Assembly (NCBI GenBank): GCA_030427505.1
Contig: JAUICH010000002.1
Location: 124,001-188,000 of the forward strand
DNA length: 64,000 nucleotides
Reading direction: 5' to 3'
DNA from: Verrucomicrobiia bacterium
GTDB taxonomy: Bacteria; Verrucomicrobiota; Verrucomicrobiia; Verrucomicrobiales; DEV007
Part shown: one piece after another, positions 54,345-61,446 of the stretch
How positions within the stretch are numbered: position 1 is the first letter of the stretch
How the letters are laid out: each line of letters starts with the position of its first letter
Notes under the pieces: model-generated
What the model was told of the DNA's origin: nothing
Database searches by the model: none
What the model saw: the letters and a program-made list of their open reading frames with translations, nothing else
Program-made: the position numbers and the translations under genes

Positions 54345-57300
54345 ATGCGGCTGATTCGTCAAACTAAGCTCCACTTCCGAGAAGGAAACTCGGACAAGGT
54401 CTACGAGGTGGACCTCTGTGAAGCCGGGGCGGGCGAATTTCTCGTGAATTTTCGCTACGGTCGGCGCGGCCAGAGCCTGCGGGAGGGCACGAAAACCGCG
54501 TTTCCGGAGACCAGGGAAAAGGCCGAACAGATCTTCGACCGCCTGGTGCAGAGCAAGTTGAACAAGGGCTACCGGGAAGGCGCCTCCGCTGGACCGGTGG
54601 CAGGGGAAACCGAAACGGAAACGGAAACCGCGGCCCAGGCGACGCCGGGAGCGCCAGGTCTGTGCGGGACGCCCAAGCAGCGAGCCCGGCTTTCTCAGTA
54701 TCTTTCGGTCGCGGCCAAAGGGGGAAAGGTGCCTGGAGACTGGAAGCTTTCCCGCGTCCTCTGGCGAGCGGGGGAGATGGGCGATCCGGCCAATGTGGCC
54801 TCCCTACTGGAGATCAAACCGAAGAAAAGCCTGCAAGCGTATTCCCTGGCCTGGGCGCTGGGGAAAAGTGGAGATAAGGCGGCGGTTCCGAAGTTGCGGG
54901 AACTGGCGGATTTTTCCGATGAGAAAGTGCGCCGCATCGCCACCGAAGCGCTGCTGCGGAGCCTGCCGGAGGAGGAAGCAAAAGCACTGGCCGGGGAATT
55001 GCGGGCCAAGATTCCTAAAGCGCTAAGCGAAATTCTCGAGTCCGGGGGACCTGACCCGTCTGCTTTGACGGAAGCCCTGATGACTTTGCTTCATGGGAGC
55101 CCTCCGCCTCACGACTATTTTTACCTTCTCTACACGCAGGCCCGAGTGTATCCCGTGGCCAGGGAGGCGGTGTATGCCGCGTTGCGAAGCCTCACGTTCA
55201 AGGCACCGTGGTTCCGGGCCGTCCGTCACATCTTTAAAGCGGCGGAGTTTCGCCAGGATGCGGAAGTTTTTGGTCTGATTGCGCGGCGGTTTGAAAAGTC
55301 GAGCGCGGACTTCAACAATGGTTGGGGATATGTATACGACCCCGAGATCCGGAAATCTCAGAAGGTTTCCGAGGTTTGCAGCAAGCCGGACAGTAAGTTT
55401 GGGTATTCCCAAAGCACCCGGGCCTATCTGCGCCGCCGGGTTTGCCGGACGCTGAAGAGATATGGGGAACTGCAGGACACCGCTTCGTTCGTCACCCTGG
55501 CCACGGGTGTTCTCATGGCGTATGACGACGAGCAGGACCTGAAGCCCATCACGAACGCGAATGAATACGTCTGGAATTCCGCGACCCGGAGGCTGGACAC
55601 GATCGAACGCCATCTGGGATTCTATGCCGGGTATCTTCCGCTGAATTATTTGCTCTACCAGAATAGCGACCGCTATTTCTTTCAGTCCAACAAGAGGTGG
55701 GTCACTAAGGACGGTTACAATCCTTTTACGGCGGGGGCACCGGGCGAGACTTTGCCAGCGAAGCGGGAAGAGGCCTTCCCTTCCCTCTGGAATCAAGCAC
55801 CGGACGCCATCCGGCATCTCCTGGCCCATAGCAGCTGTGGAGCGGTGCATGAGTTTGCCGTCCGGGTATGGCAGGACAATTCCGCTTTCGGCCAGGAGGC
55901 AGATACGGACTTCGTGCTCGCTACCTTGGCGCGGCCCTACCGGGTTACGCAGGAGTTGGGACTCAATTTGGCGAGGGAGCGCTTCGATCCCAGCCAACCG
56001 GACCGGGCGCTTTTGGTGGCATTGCTAGGGTGTGAACTGCCGGCGGCCCGGGAATTGGCGGTGGGGTGGTTGAAAGACTGCCGCCAGGCGTTTGCGGGAG
56101 ACGCGGACTTCATCGCTCAGGCGATTCTCATCCCCCATGACGATGTCCACGCCGCCTTGCGCTCCTGGCTCGGTACCGCGCGGCCGGAACCGGCTTTGCT
56201 GGATCTCATCGTTCCCCGCGTTGTGGCGACCTTGCTAAGCCTGACCGCGGGGGATGCCGAGGGTGGCGCGAAGCTGGCCCGCAATGCCCGGGAAACGCTC
56301 CTGCTTCTGGGGGGCGATCATTTGGGCGGGGTGTCTCTAACCGTGATCCAGGATCTGCTGCGCCATCCGCTGGACGAAGTGCGGCTGCTGGGGGCCCAAA
56401 TGGTCTCGCTCGGTCCGGAACCGCCGAACACCTTGCCGGATGCCATTTGGGAGTTGCTCCTCCTCAATGAATGCCTGGAAGTTCGCGAGGTGGGAATGCG
56501 GCTGTTCGCCCGAATGGAAGACGCGCACTTGCTGGAACGCGCGGAGATCCTGGCCAGCTTTTGCCTTTCCGCGCGGGAAGACGTGCGCCAGGCGGCGCGG
56601 CCCATCGTGGAGCGGCTGGCGGCCTACAGTCCCGGCTTTGGGCAGGACATGGTCCTGCAGTTCTATCCGCTGACCCTCCGGCAGGAAAGTATCGAGGGCT
56701 TGCAGGATGACGTGTATGCTCTCCTCTCCGGTCCGCTGAGCGAGCATCTTCACGCCATTCCGCCGGAGTCTTGTTTCCGGATGATGGAGTCCCGCTATCC
56801 CGCCGGTCAGAAACTCGGTTTCCTCATCCTCCAGCGCTCCATCGATGTGGAGAGCCTCTCCATAAAGCAGTGGGTGCGAATCGCGGAGCAGGATCACCTG
56901 GAAGGGCGGCGGTTTGTTTGGGACTATTTCACCGCGCATGTGGAGCGGGTGCGCCGGGAAGCGGAGGACGCTTTGCGCCTGGTAGACTCCCGCTGGGACG
57001 ACACGCGGGACTTTGCTTTTTCTTTTTTTCGCGAACAGTTCACCGACGCGGACTGGACGCCGGACCTGCTGGTCAGTCTCTGCGACAGCACGAGGGCGCC
57101 GGTGCAGGCTTTTGGGAAAGAGATGATCACCCGGTTTTTCCAGGAGGCGGACGGTCAAACCTATCTCTTGAAGCTCAGCCAGCATCCCAGCAGCGATCTG
57201 CAGACCTTTGCGACTAACTACCTGGCGCGTTTCGCGGCGGGCCGGGCGGACTTAATCGAGTCGCTGTCTCTTTACTTTACCACGGTGCTCAGCCAGGTGA

Positions 57301-57533
57301 ACCGTGCCCGGGTGGCGAAGGAAAGGGTGCTCGCCTTTTTGAGAGAAGAAGCCCTGCGGGACCCGGCCACGGCCGCCGTCGTGGTGCCGATCCTTGAGAG
57401 GGTTTCCGCCACCATCGCCATGGGGGACAAGGCCGCCTGCCTCCTGACCCTGCGGGACATCGCAGCGGCCTGGCCCGAGTTGGCGACTCCCGTCAAAGCC
57501 GTGGAGATACCGACCTGTTCCGTTGGCTTCTGA
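54345..57533 (+). CDS. WGR-domain protein with HEAT/ARM repeats (retron-associated)
   Basis: 1062 residues. The N-terminal ~75 residues form a WGR domain: LIRQTKLHFREGNSDKVYEV, FLVNFRYGRRGQSL (Tyr in place of Trp in the name-giving motif) and a GTKT...GY ending. A short acidic linker follows, then ~950 residues of alpha-helical repeats with periodic short helix pairs (for example LLEIKPKKSLQAYSLAWALG, AVPKLRELADFSDEKVRRIA), typical of HEAT/ARM arrays. WGR domains bind nucleic acids or regulate PARP-like and replication proteins. The next gene starts 12 bp downstream, so they form one operon leading to a reverse transcriptase. As I recall, an ARM-repeat protein and a WHSWIM protein are the accessory genes of type XIII retrons. 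Confidence 0.82.
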   Translation: MRLIRQTKLHFREGNSDKVYEVDLCEAGAGEFLVNFRYGRRGQSLREGTKTAFPETREKAEQIFDRLVQSKLNKGYREGASAGPVAGETETETETAAQATPGAPGLCGTPKQRARLSQYLSVAAKGGKVPGDWKLSRVLWRAGEMGDPANVASLLEIKPKKSLQAYSLAWALGKSGDKAAVPKLRELADFSDEKVRRIATEALLRSLPEEEAKALAGELRAKIPKALSEILESGGPDPSALTEALMTLLHGSPPPHDYFYLLYTQARVYPVAREAVYAALRSLTFKAPWFRAVRHIFKAAEFRQDAEVFGLIARRFEKSSADFNNGWGYVYDPEIRKSQKVSEVCSKPDSKFGYSQSTRAYLRRRVCRTLKRYGELQDTASFVTLATGVLMAYDDEQDLKPITNANEYVWNSATRRLDTIERHLGFYAGYLPLNYLLYQNSDRYFFQSNKRWVTKDGYNPFTAGAPGETLPAKREEAFPSLWNQAPDAIRHLLAHSSCGAVHEFAVRVWQDNSAFGQEADTDFVLATLARPYRVTQELGLNLARERFDPSQPDRALLVALLGCELPAARELAVGWLKDCRQAFAGDADFIAQAILIPHDDVHAALRSWLGTARPEPALLDLIVPRVVATLLSLTAGDAEGGAKLARNARETLLLLGGDHLGGVSLTVIQDLLRHPLDEVRLLGAQMVSLGPEPPNTLPDAIWELLLLNECLEVREVGMRLFARMEDAHLLERAEILASFCLSAREDVRQAARPIVERLAAYSPGFGQDMVLQFYPLTLRQESIEGLQDDVYALLSGPLSEHLHAIPPESCFRMMESRYPAGQKLGFLILQRSIDVESLSIKQWVRIAEQDHLEGRRFVWDYFTAHVERVRREAEDALRLVDSRWDDTRDFAFSFFREQFTDADWTPDLLVSLCDSTRAPVQAFGKEMITRFFQEADGQTYLLKLSQHPSSDLQTFATNYLARFAAGRADLIESLSLYFTTVLSQVNRARVAKERVLAFLREEALRDPATAAVVVPILERVSATIAMGDKAACLLTLRDIAAAWPELATPVKAVEIPTCSVGF

Positions 57534-57545
57534 TTTTTTTTAGCC

Positions 57546-59183
57546 ATGCTTTTTAACTATCGCTATAGCGGCTCTTCCCGCGTTTCCAGCACGGCTCACC
57601 GGACCGGGCTGAGTTTCGTGCCGGATACTCTGCGGCAGCCCACGTTTTTCTCAGGCTCGCTGAACCGGAAGGTGCCCTTCCGCGAAGCTATTTCCGCCCT
57701 GCACGATGTCGTCATTTCCGACCATCGTTTCAAACCGAGGGATCTGACCGAATACAAGGCCTGGGCCAAAGAGCAGGAGGATCAATGGGTGGCCGAAATC
57801 CTGGCGGAAGCGCCGCAAGTAGGCGCTCAGTTGAAGGAGAAGCAGGCTCTGTTGCGCGAAATGGACGCGAATCGGCAGCGCGTCATGGCGCCCTATTACG
57901 AGGCTCAGCAGCGTTACTTTCGCTGGCTCTTTCTAAGAGACCGGGACATGTGGTTCGTTCTCGATCCCGTCATCACCGTGCATCCGGACGAGTTGTTCTT
58001 TGAATGCTTCAGCGAGGACGAGTCCTCCTACGGGCGGCTGGGGTGCAATTACGAGGTCTTCGATCAGATGGGCGAAAAGGCCTGTGGCACGACGAATATT
58101 GACTATTCAGACGGGCTCTATCAGGAATTTCAGAAGATCCGGGACTACAAGCAGACGGATTTCCAGGTGGACCCCGGCGGCTTTGAAGTTTCGACCACGA
58201 ATGAAGAGACCTACCGGGAGGTGAAGATCGACCTGCCTGATAGCTGGGTGCGGGGTTTCCTGCAGGTCAGCTCCGCCATGACGCTGCCGGGGTATCAGTT
58301 CGACCTTCACCCCATGGACGTGCATAACTTCTGTTTTGTGCTGCGCCGGGCGAAGGAAAAGCGCGGACCGCGCTCCATTCGTTTCGTCCTGAAACCGGGC
58401 GAGCCAGTCCGGGCTATCTTTGAGCCCTGGAACCGGGAGGTGGTGTGTCCGCGCTCCGTATACCACGGCCCGGAGGAGGCGGAGATCCGCATCTGGGGGC
58501 GCCGCCGGCTGCTCGTGCTGGAGCGGCTCATTCCCGTGGCACGCCGTTTCCGGGTGACTTTGTTAGGCACCGGCATGCCCTCCTTTTACGTGGCCGACCT
58601 GGGGGACATGAACTTTACTCTCGGACTCTCCGGATGGACAGCCAATGACTGGTCGCGTGCCGGGAACTTCGATCTCATGGCGCCCCGGGAGGAGTTGGAA
58701 GATCACCTGAAGATGCGGATCTTTGAAGCCCTCCAGGAGAACTGGGTGGAGTCTCCGGACTCCCTGGCCCGGCGATTGCACCTTCCCGCCGGTCAGGTGC
58801 ACAGCGCCCTGGCGGCGTGGACCCAGGCGGGCCGGGCCATTTACGATCTGAACAAGGGTGTCTATCGCGTGCGCGAACTCAGCCGGGAGCCGCTGCCGAT
58901 GGACCGGCTCCGGTTTTCCAACGAACGGGAAGAACGCGCCAACGAGCTGGCCTCCTCGCTGGACCGGGCCAGGGTCGTTGCCCAGAAGGAAGAGGGCCGG
59001 CTCCGGCTGGGTGGAGAGATTCCAGATGGCGGGACGACTCACAAGACCGCGCTGTTCATCGACGAAGATCAGCGCCTCATCGCGGCTGACTGCACCTGTT
59101 CGTTCTTCATTCAGAACAAGCTCTACAAAGGGCCCTGCGAACACATCCTGGCCACGCGAATCCTTCACCAACGCCGCGGATGA
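57546..59183 (+). CDS. Winged-helix and SWIM zinc-finger protein (retron-associated)
   Basis: 545 residues. The C-terminus has a SWIM zinc motif, CxC-x12-CxH: Cys516, Cys518, Cys531 and His533 (CTCSFF...GPCEH). A winged-helix region lies at ~410-450 (SLARRLHLPAGQVHSALAAWTQAGRAIYDL). The first ~400 residues are a large, mostly beta/alpha domain without a known motif (for example MWFVLDPVITVHPDELFF). SWIM domains bind DNA or proteins. The gene is followed directly by the 754-bp non-coding region and the reverse transcriptase. Its partner is probably the WGR/HEAT protein. Confidence 0.85.
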   Translation: MLFNYRYSGSSRVSSTAHRTGLSFVPDTLRQPTFFSGSLNRKVPFREAISALHDVVISDHRFKPRDLTEYKAWAKEQEDQWVAEILAEAPQVGAQLKEKQALLREMDANRQRVMAPYYEAQQRYFRWLFLRDRDMWFVLDPVITVHPDELFFECFSEDESSYGRLGCNYEVFDQMGEKACGTTNIDYSDGLYQEFQKIRDYKQTDFQVDPGGFEVSTTNEETYREVKIDLPDSWVRGFLQVSSAMTLPGYQFDLHPMDVHNFCFVLRRAKEKRGPRSIRFVLKPGEPVRAIFEPWNREVVCPRSVYHGPEEAEIRIWGRRRLLVLERLIPVARRFRVTLLGTGMPSFYVADLGDMNFTLGLSGWTANDWSRAGNFDLMAPREELEDHLKMRIFEALQENWVESPDSLARRLHLPAGQVHSALAAWTQAGRAIYDLNKGVYRVRELSREPLPMDRLRFSNEREERANELASSLDRARVVAQKEEGRLRLGGEIPDGGTTHKTALFIDEDQRLIAADCTCSFFIQNKLYKGPCEHILATRILHQRRG

Positions 59184-59195
59184 GTCACCATTTTA

Positions 59196-59447
59196 GCACA
59201 GCAACGGGGGGCCTCGCCCACCGCACCTTGCCACCGGGCGGCGCATCGCCGTCCTTGCCCACAGACAAGCAACGCACCACTGGTGCGCTCTCGACTGTGC
59301 GGGGCGTACACTACTGGCCGCCATTTCCGGAGCGAATCCGGAGGATTGAAATAGCGGCCAGTAGTGGCCCCGCTGGAGTTGAGCCCCCCAGTCCGGGGAT
59401 GAGAACGAAGCGCGGCGGGCATCCCATGGGTGCCTCCGTTGCTGTGC
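59196..59447 (+). ncRNA. Structured RNA unit A, candidate msr-msd of the retron
   Basis: A 252-nt unit closed by a terminal stem: 59196-59207 pairs perfectly with 59436-59447 (GCACAGCAACGG), extended by three pairs, and an inner continuation joins 59216-59224 to 59412-59420 with one mismatch. Inside are a hairpin 59236-59243/59247-59254 (loop CAT), another at 59273-59278/59282-59287 (loop ACT), and a long hairpin: 59299-59305/59367-59373, then 59310-59321/59354-59365 (ACTACTGGCCGC, 12 perfect pairs), then 59323-59327/59348-59352, with an apical stem at 59335-59339/59343-59347. In retrons, terminal repeats a1/a2 enclose msr and a long msd hairpin upstream of the RT gene. Unit B has the same fold with different stem sequences. 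A run of seven T follows at 59450. Confidence 0.75.
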
Positions 59448-59456
59448 AATTTTTTT

Positions 59457-59705
59457 CAGTAACAGGAGCCGGTGGAGACACCGCTCGAACCTTGCATTGG
59501 AGCGGCGTTTCGCCGTTCAAGCTAAAAGACACGCAACGCCTCACCGGCCGCATCTCGACTGTGCGGGCCATGACACCGGTAGGTCGTTCCCGGATCGAAA
59601 CCGGAGGTTTGGAACAACCTACCGGTGTCGGCCCGCTGGAGTTGATACGTCCAGTGCCGGGATATGAGCGAAGATCCCGGGCGGTGTTTCCCCGGCCTGT
59701 TGCTG
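59457..59705 (+). ncRNA. Structured RNA unit B, second candidate msr-msd of the retron
   Basis: A 249-nt unit homologous to unit A, starting 9 nt after it. Terminal stem: 59457-59466 with 59696-59705 (one wobble), 59469-59472 with 59692-59695, and 59478-59484 with 59681-59687. Hairpin 1: 59500-59507/59511-59518 with a TTT loop, as is common in retron msr. Long hairpin: 59563-59569/59630-59636, then 59572-59584/59617-59629 (GACACCGGTAGGT, 13 perfect pairs), a C-A mismatch at the same place as in unit A, 59586-59590/59611-59615, and an apical stem AAACC/GGTTT. The linkers CTCGACTGTGCGGG and TGGAGTTGA are the same in A and B. Confidence 0.75.
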
Positions 59706-59709
59706 ACCA

Positions 59710-59922
59710 GGGTGTATGGACAAATTCCCGAACCGCCCGGATTGAATGAAAGAAGGAGATCGAATCAGCGCCGCAAGCGGCGAATTTTTCATAAGCGCGG
59801 CCCATTTTGCGCCTGGCTGCGTTCCGCCTCACTCTATTGGGTTCACCCAACGGCATTCGGCGCGCCTTGCCAGCCGAAAAATGGTCTCGTGCCGGGCGGA
59901 CCGCCAATTTGTCCATACACCC
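59710..59922. repeat. Inverted-repeat element between the ncRNA units and the RT gene (repeat copy 2)
   Basis: 213 bp bounded by inverted repeats: GGGTGTATGGACAAATT (59710-59726) and its exact complement at 59906-59922, with a partly matching 14-bp extension that includes CCGCCCGG. Internal hairpins are CGCCG-CAAG-CGGCG and TTGGG-TTCA-CCCAA. It is related to the element at 37216-37460, which has no RT nearby, so it is more likely a dispersed MITE-like or structured repeat than the retron's own RNA. No ORF of interest lies in it. It ends 15 bp before the RT start codon. Confidence 0.75.
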
Positions 59923-59937
59923 TAGCTTTCCCAGCTT

Positions 59938-61446
59938 ATGAGTAACCGACGCCAGGAACTCTACGACCGGATTCGCGCCTCATCCAAGGGGGAAGTCATC
60001 CGGGAAGAAATGGTGCGCCTGGGTTTCTGGAAGCCGAAGGACGGCACGCCCGAGGCCATGACCAATGAGTGGCTGGAGAAACGGGCCGAACTCACGAAAG
60101 AGATCAACGCGCTGGCTCAGAAGCAGCGGAAGTATGAGAACCGCGAAGCGATGCTCCGGGAAATGCGCCAGCGGCGCATGGCCGACGCGCGCCGCCGCCG
60201 GGAAGAGACCAAGGAGCGCCACGAAGCGGAACGGAAAGCCCGGGCTGAGGCGTGGGAGGAGAGAAAGCAGAACGACATTCTCTACCTGGGCGAAGGGGTC
60301 TCCGCTGGGCTCCATGGGGAGGGTGCTGAGGCTTCACCGGCGGATCCCACGCGCTTTGGGTTGCCCGCTATCCGCACTGTGAAGGAATTGTCCGAAGTGC
60401 TGGGTGTGGGGCTGGGGGAACTCCGCTTTCTTTCCTTCCACCGCAAGGTGTCCCGCGTCTCTCATTACCGGCGCTTCTTCATGCCGAAGAAGTCAGGTGG
60501 CAAGCGGCTCATTTCCGCCCCCATGCCCAGGCTGAAAGCATTGCAGTACCGCGTGTTGGAAAAATTCCTGGAGCCGGTACCGGTGCATGATGCCGCACAT
60601 GGCTTCGTTCCGGGGCGTTCCATCCTGACCAATGCCAGCGCTCACACAGGCCGGGACCTGGTGGTGAACTTGGACCTGAAAGACTTCTTTCCCTCCGTCA
60701 GCTTTCGCCGGACCAAGGGGCTGTTCCGGGCTCTCGGGTATCCGGAAAAGATTGCCACCATCCTGGGCCTGATCTGCACGGAGGCGGACACGGACGAGGT
60801 GGAACTGGATGGCGAACGCTACTTTCTCCACCGCTCCGAACGGCGCCTGCCCCAAGGGGCGCCCACCAGCCCGGCCATTACCAATATTCTGTGCTACCGG
60901 CTCGACCGCCGGCTCCAGGGGGTTGCCCAGAGCCTGGGCTATACCTACACCCGCTACGCGGACGACTTGACGTTTTCCGTTTCCGGCGAGCCGGTGACGG
61001 ACCTGAAACGGCTCCTCTGGCGCATCCGTTCCGTCGTCCAGTCAGAAGGGTTCCAGCTTCACCCGGACAAAACCCGCATCATGCGCCGTGGCCGCCAGCA
61101 GGAAGTCACCGGCCTGACCGTGAACGACGGCGTATCCGTGCCCCGCCGGGATCTGCGGAACTTTCGCGCCCTCCTGCACCGCATCGAAAAAGACGGCCTC
61201 TCGGGAAGAAGCTGGCGAGGCTCCAGCGCCAACCTCCTCTCCGCCATCCGCGGCTATGCCTACTTCGTCCGCATGGTCCACCCGGAAAAGGGCGAGTCCT
61301 ATGTCACCCAAGTCCAGAACATCCTGGAAGCCAACCAATGGCAACACGTCATCCGGCATCCCCGGAAAGCGCCCGCCGCGTCTGACACAGCACTGCCGAA
61401 AAAGAAAAGCTTCCTCCAGAAGCTGCTTTTCTGGCGAAAGGGGTGA
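59938..61446 (+). CDS. Retron-type reverse transcriptase with N-terminal helical extension
   Basis: 502 residues. Residues 1-~135 are a highly charged, probably coiled-coil helix region (Arg/Glu/Lys-rich, e.g. RQRRMADARRRREETKERHE at ~77). The RT domain follows: HGFVPGRSI (221-229), the retron NAxxH motif NASAH (232-236), LDLKDFFPS (245-253; Asp246), LPQGAPTSP (304-312), YADD (340-343) and the retron VTG motif (390-392). NAxxH and VTG separate retron RTs from group II intron RTs; there is no maturase or endonuclease domain. It would convert the upstream RNA to msDNA. The tail KKKSFLQKLLFWRKG is basic and hydrophobic. No Shine-Dalgarno sequence is visible. Confidence 0.92.
   Translation: MSNRRQELYDRIRASSKGEVIREEMVRLGFWKPKDGTPEAMTNEWLEKRAELTKEINALAQKQRKYENREAMLREMRQRRMADARRRREETKERHEAERKARAEAWEERKQNDILYLGEGVSAGLHGEGAEASPADPTRFGLPAIRTVKELSEVLGVGLGELRFLSFHRKVSRVSHYRRFFMPKKSGGKRLISAPMPRLKALQYRVLEKFLEPVPVHDAAHGFVPGRSILTNASAHTGRDLVVNLDLKDFFPSVSFRRTKGLFRALGYPEKIATILGLICTEADTDEVELDGERYFLHRSERRLPQGAPTSPAITNILCYRLDRRLQGVAQSLGYTYTRYADDLTFSVSGEPVTDLKRLLWRIRSVVQSEGFQLHPDKTRIMRRGRQQEVTGLTVNDGVSVPRRDLRNFRALLHRIEKDGLSGRSWRGSSANLLSAIRGYAYFVRMVHPEKGESYVTQVQNILEANQWQHVIRHPRKAPAASDTALPKKKSFLQKLLFWRKG

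Follow-up and report, generated by a model that had tools for sequence, protein, structure and literature searches.

The 64,000-nt stretch of DNA from a Verrucomicrobiia bacterium analysed here (the window) carries a type XIII retron whose msr-msd gene appears to have been duplicated in tandem with both copies retained, and these two units, A and B, are probably both active templates that would yield two msDNAs, probably serving as different phage sensors. Retrons are usually pictured with a single RNA, a single RT and a single effector. That a single RT would make two different msDNAs follows from the anatomy of the units, as each copy would be self-contained, with its own a1/a2 stem, putative priming guanosine within TTGC, first hairpin, long stem and CGAAG start (Table 1).

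Table 1. Features of the retron locus and of the adjoining repeat, in window coordinates
Feature	Position	Strand	Remarks
WGR/HEAT-repeat accessory gene	54345..57533	+	1062 aa; PADLOC WGR_XIII 1114 bits, E 0; Pfam WGR
SWIM accessory gene	57546..59183	+	545 aa; PADLOC SWIM_XIII 774 bits, E 1.4e-233; Pfam SWIM
Unit A, complete msr-msd RNA with own a1/a2	59196..59447	+	R1 148.5 bits, core 59228-59410
Unit A invariant TTGC, just inside a1	59228..59231	+	G59230, putative priming guanosine
Unit A hairpin 1, msr side	59236..59254	+	G-U tolerated
Unit A long msd hairpin	59299..59373	+	variable upper stem of 13 bp above a basal helix and left bulge, then an apical part
Unit A CGAAG adjoining a2	59406..59410	+	putative template start
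Unit B, second complete msr-msd RNA with own a1/a2	59457..59705	+	R1 150.0 bits, core 59492-59673
Unit B invariant TTGC	59492..59495	+	G59494, putative priming guanosine
Unit B hairpin 1	59500..59518	+	
Unit B long msd hairpin	59563..59636	+	upper stem unlike that of unit A
Unit B CGAAG adjoining a2	59669..59673	+	putative template start
MITE-like repeat, 215 bp	59709..59923	.	outside the retron proper; terminal inverted repeats of 32 nt (AGGGTGTATGGACAAATT...)
Type XIII retron RT	59938..61446	+	502 aa; PADLOC RT_XIII 605 bits, E 2.5e-182; RVT_1

Operon and Protein Components

The operon is ordered WGR/HEAT, SWIM, units A and B (59196-59705) and RT, all on the + strand, placing the family-specific ncRNA between SWIM and RT, and both units are msr-msd RNAs bounded by a1/a2 upstream of the RT. 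The type XIII models of PADLOC are the best match for the RT, SWIM and WGR proteins alike (3/3); judged by its RT_XIII, WGR/HEAT and SWIM genes, the locus is a type XIII retron, a class from a scheme reportedly due to Mestre et al. in 2020. The solved structures closest to the RT are retron RTs, with DRT2 chains far weaker; the closest by sequence is the RT of Eco1 (Ec86) at E 1e-39, in a match that covers residues 139-417 only. Eco1 has a single unit and a different effector from that of the window. The motifs NASAH (residues 232-236), YADD (340-343) and VTG (390-392) can be read in the RT sequence, and retron RTs are described as having NAXXH (region X), YADD and VTG (region Y) (PMC6868368).

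Neither accessory protein (WGR/HEAT or SWIM) showed a nuclease domain in a Pfam search. The model of the WGR protein (pLDDT 86) has an N-terminal WGR domain followed by a long helical-repeat stretch, and the model of the SWIM protein (mean pLDDT 72) matches PCNA over residues 34-366 with a Z score of 16.2 and an rmsd of 2.8 over 217 residues. In the predicted layout of the SWIM_XIII protein, a PCNA-like sliding-clamp fold is followed by a winged-helix-like part and then by the SWIM zinc finger. A Pfam search of the SWIM protein matched no clamp family, and a search of the accessible literature found no retrons linked to a sliding clamp. An appealing guess, and no more than that, is that the clamp embraces the msDNA at its DNA stem.

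A MITE-like repeat is inserted between unit B and the RT, 3 nt from the end of the former and 14 nt short of the start of the latter, and the genome holds about 40 further copies at 73-92% identity. As a terminator-like hairpin is located within it (59769-59782, + strand), the repeat could uncouple expression of the RNA from that of the RT.

Anatomy and Folding of the Two Units

Units A and B have one architecture, in which a1 is followed by TTGC, a GC-rich hairpin, a linker, a CACTGG-like strand and the long hairpin, and then on the 3' side by GGAGTTGA, a CCAGT-like strand, CGAAG and a2. The long hairpin of both is made up of a 7-bp base, a left bulge, a 13-bp upper stem and an apical part. 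The original prediction of two structured RNA units upstream of an RT, with their coordinates and sequences, proved correct: the arms were located as 19-nt inverted repeats that are 95% complementary with a spacing of 20 nt, at 59309-59327/59348-59366 in unit A and 59572-59590/59611-59629 in unit B, and that include perfect 12- and 13-bp arms. Folding gave -145.8 kcal/mol for unit A against -106.7 for shuffles (z -8.66) and -137.8 kcal/mol for unit B against -94.3 (z -8.31), with 0 shuffles as good in either case. Searching the whole window with Rfam at gathering thresholds returned two tRNAs only.

The long-stem arms had been described as unrelated in sequence yet perfectly pairing within a shared order of linkers and hairpins, and this description holds, as the linkers are 73% identical while the upper-stem arms are at best register 41% identical, against a mean of 43% for unrelated units. 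Arm identities were computed at best register; comparison by pair index is distorted by bulges, and the 100% own pairing that it returns is by construction and carries no evidential weight. The short helix CACTGG/CCAGT, intact in nearly all relatives, is interrupted by a C-A mismatch in unit B, which given this one broken pair might be a weaker or decaying copy.

The terminal stems, with arms at 59196-59210/59433-59447 in unit A, were also said to differ and to pair. Pairing is evident, with own a1/a2 duplexes of -51.1 (A) and -54.1 (B) kcal/mol, but they differ in part only (CAGCAACGG vs CAGTAACAGG), and the swapped duplexes are weaker, at -39.9 and -34.7 kcal/mol, and still strong. Over the units of all arrays the mean a1/a2 energy is -32.8 kcal/mol for own partners and -16.6 for swapped ones; in 2/4 units of locus L030, however, the swapped partner pairs as well as or better than the own partner, so the rule that each unit pairs with its own a1/a2 is not absolute.

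Recurrence of Arrays in Relatives

Relatives were gathered by an RT-alignment search with one genome per species, from which the best 80 type XIII loci were kept. In the sample based on these loci, the covariance model R1, built from 24 units, matched 91 units across 78 of the 84 sources; two of these sources, L010 and L019, are the same contig, leaving 77 distinct loci. The matched units are all on the RT strand and all have E < 3e-23 by a short calibration, and many of them lie outside the building set (L011, L048, L090, L054). With enough flanking sequence, most relatives have the order WGR-SWIM-RNA-RT. In some cyanobacterial loci, L079 and L215 among them, the unit comes directly after SWIM and is followed by 1-2 kb of other genes before the RT; one gene between the unit and the RT of L215 resembles an RNase III gene by eye.

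Type XIII retrons share with the window all three proteins, the gene order and the msr-msd family, but 68 of the 77 distinct loci have one unit, whereas the window has two tandem units with different stems. A duplicated unit beside one RT had been called unusual, which it is without being unique, since two to four units are present at the other 9/77 loci of this sample. There are two units each in the window, L014, L048, L084, L020, L061 and L089, and four each in L030 and L081, where all four score as complete. The multi-unit loci span at least five bacterial phyla, with many of the loci being metagenome-assembled and the phylum label of L048 doubtful. Because the loci are the best 80 only, the array share of 12% is a rough figure. 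A scan of further genomes with R1 under strict filters brought two more Acidobacteriota with arrays (G405, G447) and one cyanobacterium with a spaced pair of units (G1158). The units of L061 and L089 are separated by other genes, which in L061 (2877-4148) include a pair of MqsR/MqsA-like toxin-antitoxin genes, recognised by eye in translation.

A general scatter of units away from any RT, which would have spoken against the original prediction, was not found. Among 388 genomes of the host phylum, units occur only in the 3 with RT_XIII, and in nine genomes scanned whole (eight with arrays) they occur only at the known loci, except in Calothrix HK-06. This array-bearing cyanobacterium has one further complete-looking type XIII retron locus as well as an orphan-like unit (L221:1756-1931, 91.7 bits) that adjoins a fragment of a WGR gene, with neither RT nor SWIM in the 6 kb examined. 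A blastn search of the units against their own genome returned only MITE-like repeats and no units elsewhere. A close type XIII RT was found neither in viral contigs, where RT relatives have at most 42% identity, nor in phage records, and no E. coli genomes were found near the Phytobacter type XIII RT region.

A search of the accessible literature found no tandem msr-msd units, and an earlier mention in the main retron surveys is possible; the finding is sound and represents a variant of a known retron type that recurs here, with its novelty provisional. A long msd hairpin as in the window is also present in the myxobacterial retrons Mxa1 (Mx162) and Sau1 (Sa163). Both resemble the window retron further in having an N-terminally extended RT and an a1/a2-bounded msr-msd (PMC6868368), but one msr-msd is described for each and their priming motif is CAGC in place of TTGC, in a comparison of the RT, the msr-msd and the priming motif.

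Age of the Pair and Turnover of the Stems

On an RT tree of 83 rows built by a quick method, the state of single or multiple units changes at least 8 times. The window and L014 are sisters on this tree, with RTs that are 62% identical and two units each. The arm of A is closest to unit 1 of L014 (rank 1 of 90 other units), and for the arm of B unit 2 of L014 is rank 2 of 90; hairpin identity is 0.83 and 0.77 at matching positions compared to 0.69 and 0.67 when crossed. The two linkers within L014 are 90% identical. The simplest reading of these sequences is an inherited pair whose linkers would have been homogenised later, and the positional likeness to the L014 pair suggests that both window units are old and kept.

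These observations bear on the alternative that only one unit is used, the other being a slowly decaying duplicate, and that arrays are passive tandem duplications which come and go. Tandem duplicates arise easily, arrays are scattered across the RT tree, unit B lacks one conserved pair and the stems of L020 are 88% alike, as in a young duplicate. Nevertheless, A and B both retain all invariant blocks, a perfect msd stem and their own a1/a2, the likeness by position to L014 suggests long retention across RTs of 62% identity, and in both L030 and L081 4/4 units score as complete, making this alternative distinctly unlikely.

Within arrays the linkers are 73-97% identical, and the upper arms have a mean identity of 48% at best register compared to 40% when shuffled. 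At matched linker identity, arm identity is 0.48 within arrays and 0.62 between loci, though the array pairs are not independent and gene conversion of the linkers alone could give this contrast. Not every array has diversified, as the stems of L020 and L061 are similar (arm identity 88% and 71%). Among single-unit orthologues, stem divergence is usually not above that of four-fold sites of the RT gene, and nearly all changed stem pairs are altered on both sides. The Pseudanabaena loci L086 (6759-6941) and L090 (6693-6875) have RT proteins that are 97% identical and identical RNA linkers, with 5/14 upper-stem positions changed and 5/6 changed pairs two-sided.

The idea that stems evolve faster than neutrally is mostly unsupported, since the four-fold-site divergence of the RT gene is rarely exceeded. 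A search for a motif common to the stems gave weak enrichment of CTAG, GGTG and CCTA and positional information of at most 0.26 bits.

A further alternative is that the two msDNAs, though both produced, share one function and are kept for dose or because the complex needs several, while their stems, free in sequence provided that they pair, drift neutrally by compensated changes; it competes with the sensor part of the preferred explanation and not with the two-template part. Orthologue stem divergence mostly not above that of RT four-fold sites and the low positional information of the arms are what such drift would give. Against it, arms differ more within arrays than between loci, a contrast subject to the same reservations on linker conversion and non-independent pairs. 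Shared function is quite possible, though we lean against it.

Pairing of the msd Stem as DNA

G-U pairs are harmless in RNA but are mismatches in a DNA hairpin. Across the units, the G-U share of the long msd stem (first 21 pairs) is 2.1%, well below that of hairpin 1 (12.5%; Fisher, 1e-26) and of a1/a2 (8.7%; Fisher, 9e-23). One-sided changes are present in hairpin 1 in the 91-unit alignment and are zero in helices 2, 3 and 6. Covariation across the structure is strong: 92.8% of cells are paired compared to 69.7% when shuffled, and covariation is 0.655 compared to 0.219, in an alignment that is itself fitted to the model. The relatives in the covariance-model alignment thereby agree with the earlier claim that the fold is kept and the stem sequence is not.

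The near-absence of G-U pairs and of one-sided changes in the msd stem fits a stem selected as reverse-transcribed DNA. If this reading is right, the reverse-transcribed part would run backwards from CGAAG through the CACTGG strand or beyond, leaving hairpin 1 outside, and the predicted spans would be 59279-59410 in unit A and 59543-59673 in unit B, implying msDNAs of about 130-155 nt.

The putative priming position, with the presumed branch point, is occupied by TTGC in every aligned unit, a motif that differs from those listed in PMC6868368, where the priming G is in an AGC- or TAGC-like motif next to a1. This departure from TAGC would be in keeping with units that are not retron templates but act as structural or regulatory RNAs, or that serve a different type of RT defence (DRT-like) as templates. 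Such a reading is very improbable, however, as the RT has NAXXH, YADD and VTG and matches retron RTs best with DRT2 chains far weaker, a1/a2 bounds each unit, and the G-U depletion is confined to the msd part.

Proposed Function and Significance

With both units as retron templates, the single RT would be expected to use both RNAs, giving two msDNAs of the predicted length in which the recognition parts are all common and the hairpins differ in sequence. By analogy with other retrons, the hairpin would be the phage-sensing part, in complex with the RT, WGR/HEAT and SWIM proteins, and two to four hairpins would allow wider detection by one effector set. The msd stem as sensor, the most likely role, is taken from other retrons: for a type IX retron, the accessible part of PMC13405049 proposes the msd stem loop as trigger sensor, with the structure of the msdDNA probably determining the phage protein that is recognised. 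It is this sensing model that likens the window retron to the type IX retron Kva2, which differs in type and in its HEPN effector, and for which multiple units are unmentioned in that part of the source (PMC13405049).

A broader and tentative proposal, somewhat unlikely as it stands, is that of a sensor repertoire in some type XIII retrons, in which one RT and one clamp/HEAT protein pair would read two to four different DNA hairpins, and new specificities would arise by duplication and stem replacement while selection or gene conversion holds the scaffold constant.

For type XIII retrons, the predicted PCNA-like clamp in the SWIM protein offers a testable mechanism, and arrays whose units differ chiefly in the msd stem are a natural experiment on the role of that stem: should it set the trigger, each unit of an array would be expected to answer different phages. 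The arrangement may also be of use in genome engineering, as the variable stem is the part exchanged freely by nature while the scaffold stays fixed, and several ssDNAs could be produced simultaneously by an RT able to use several templates.
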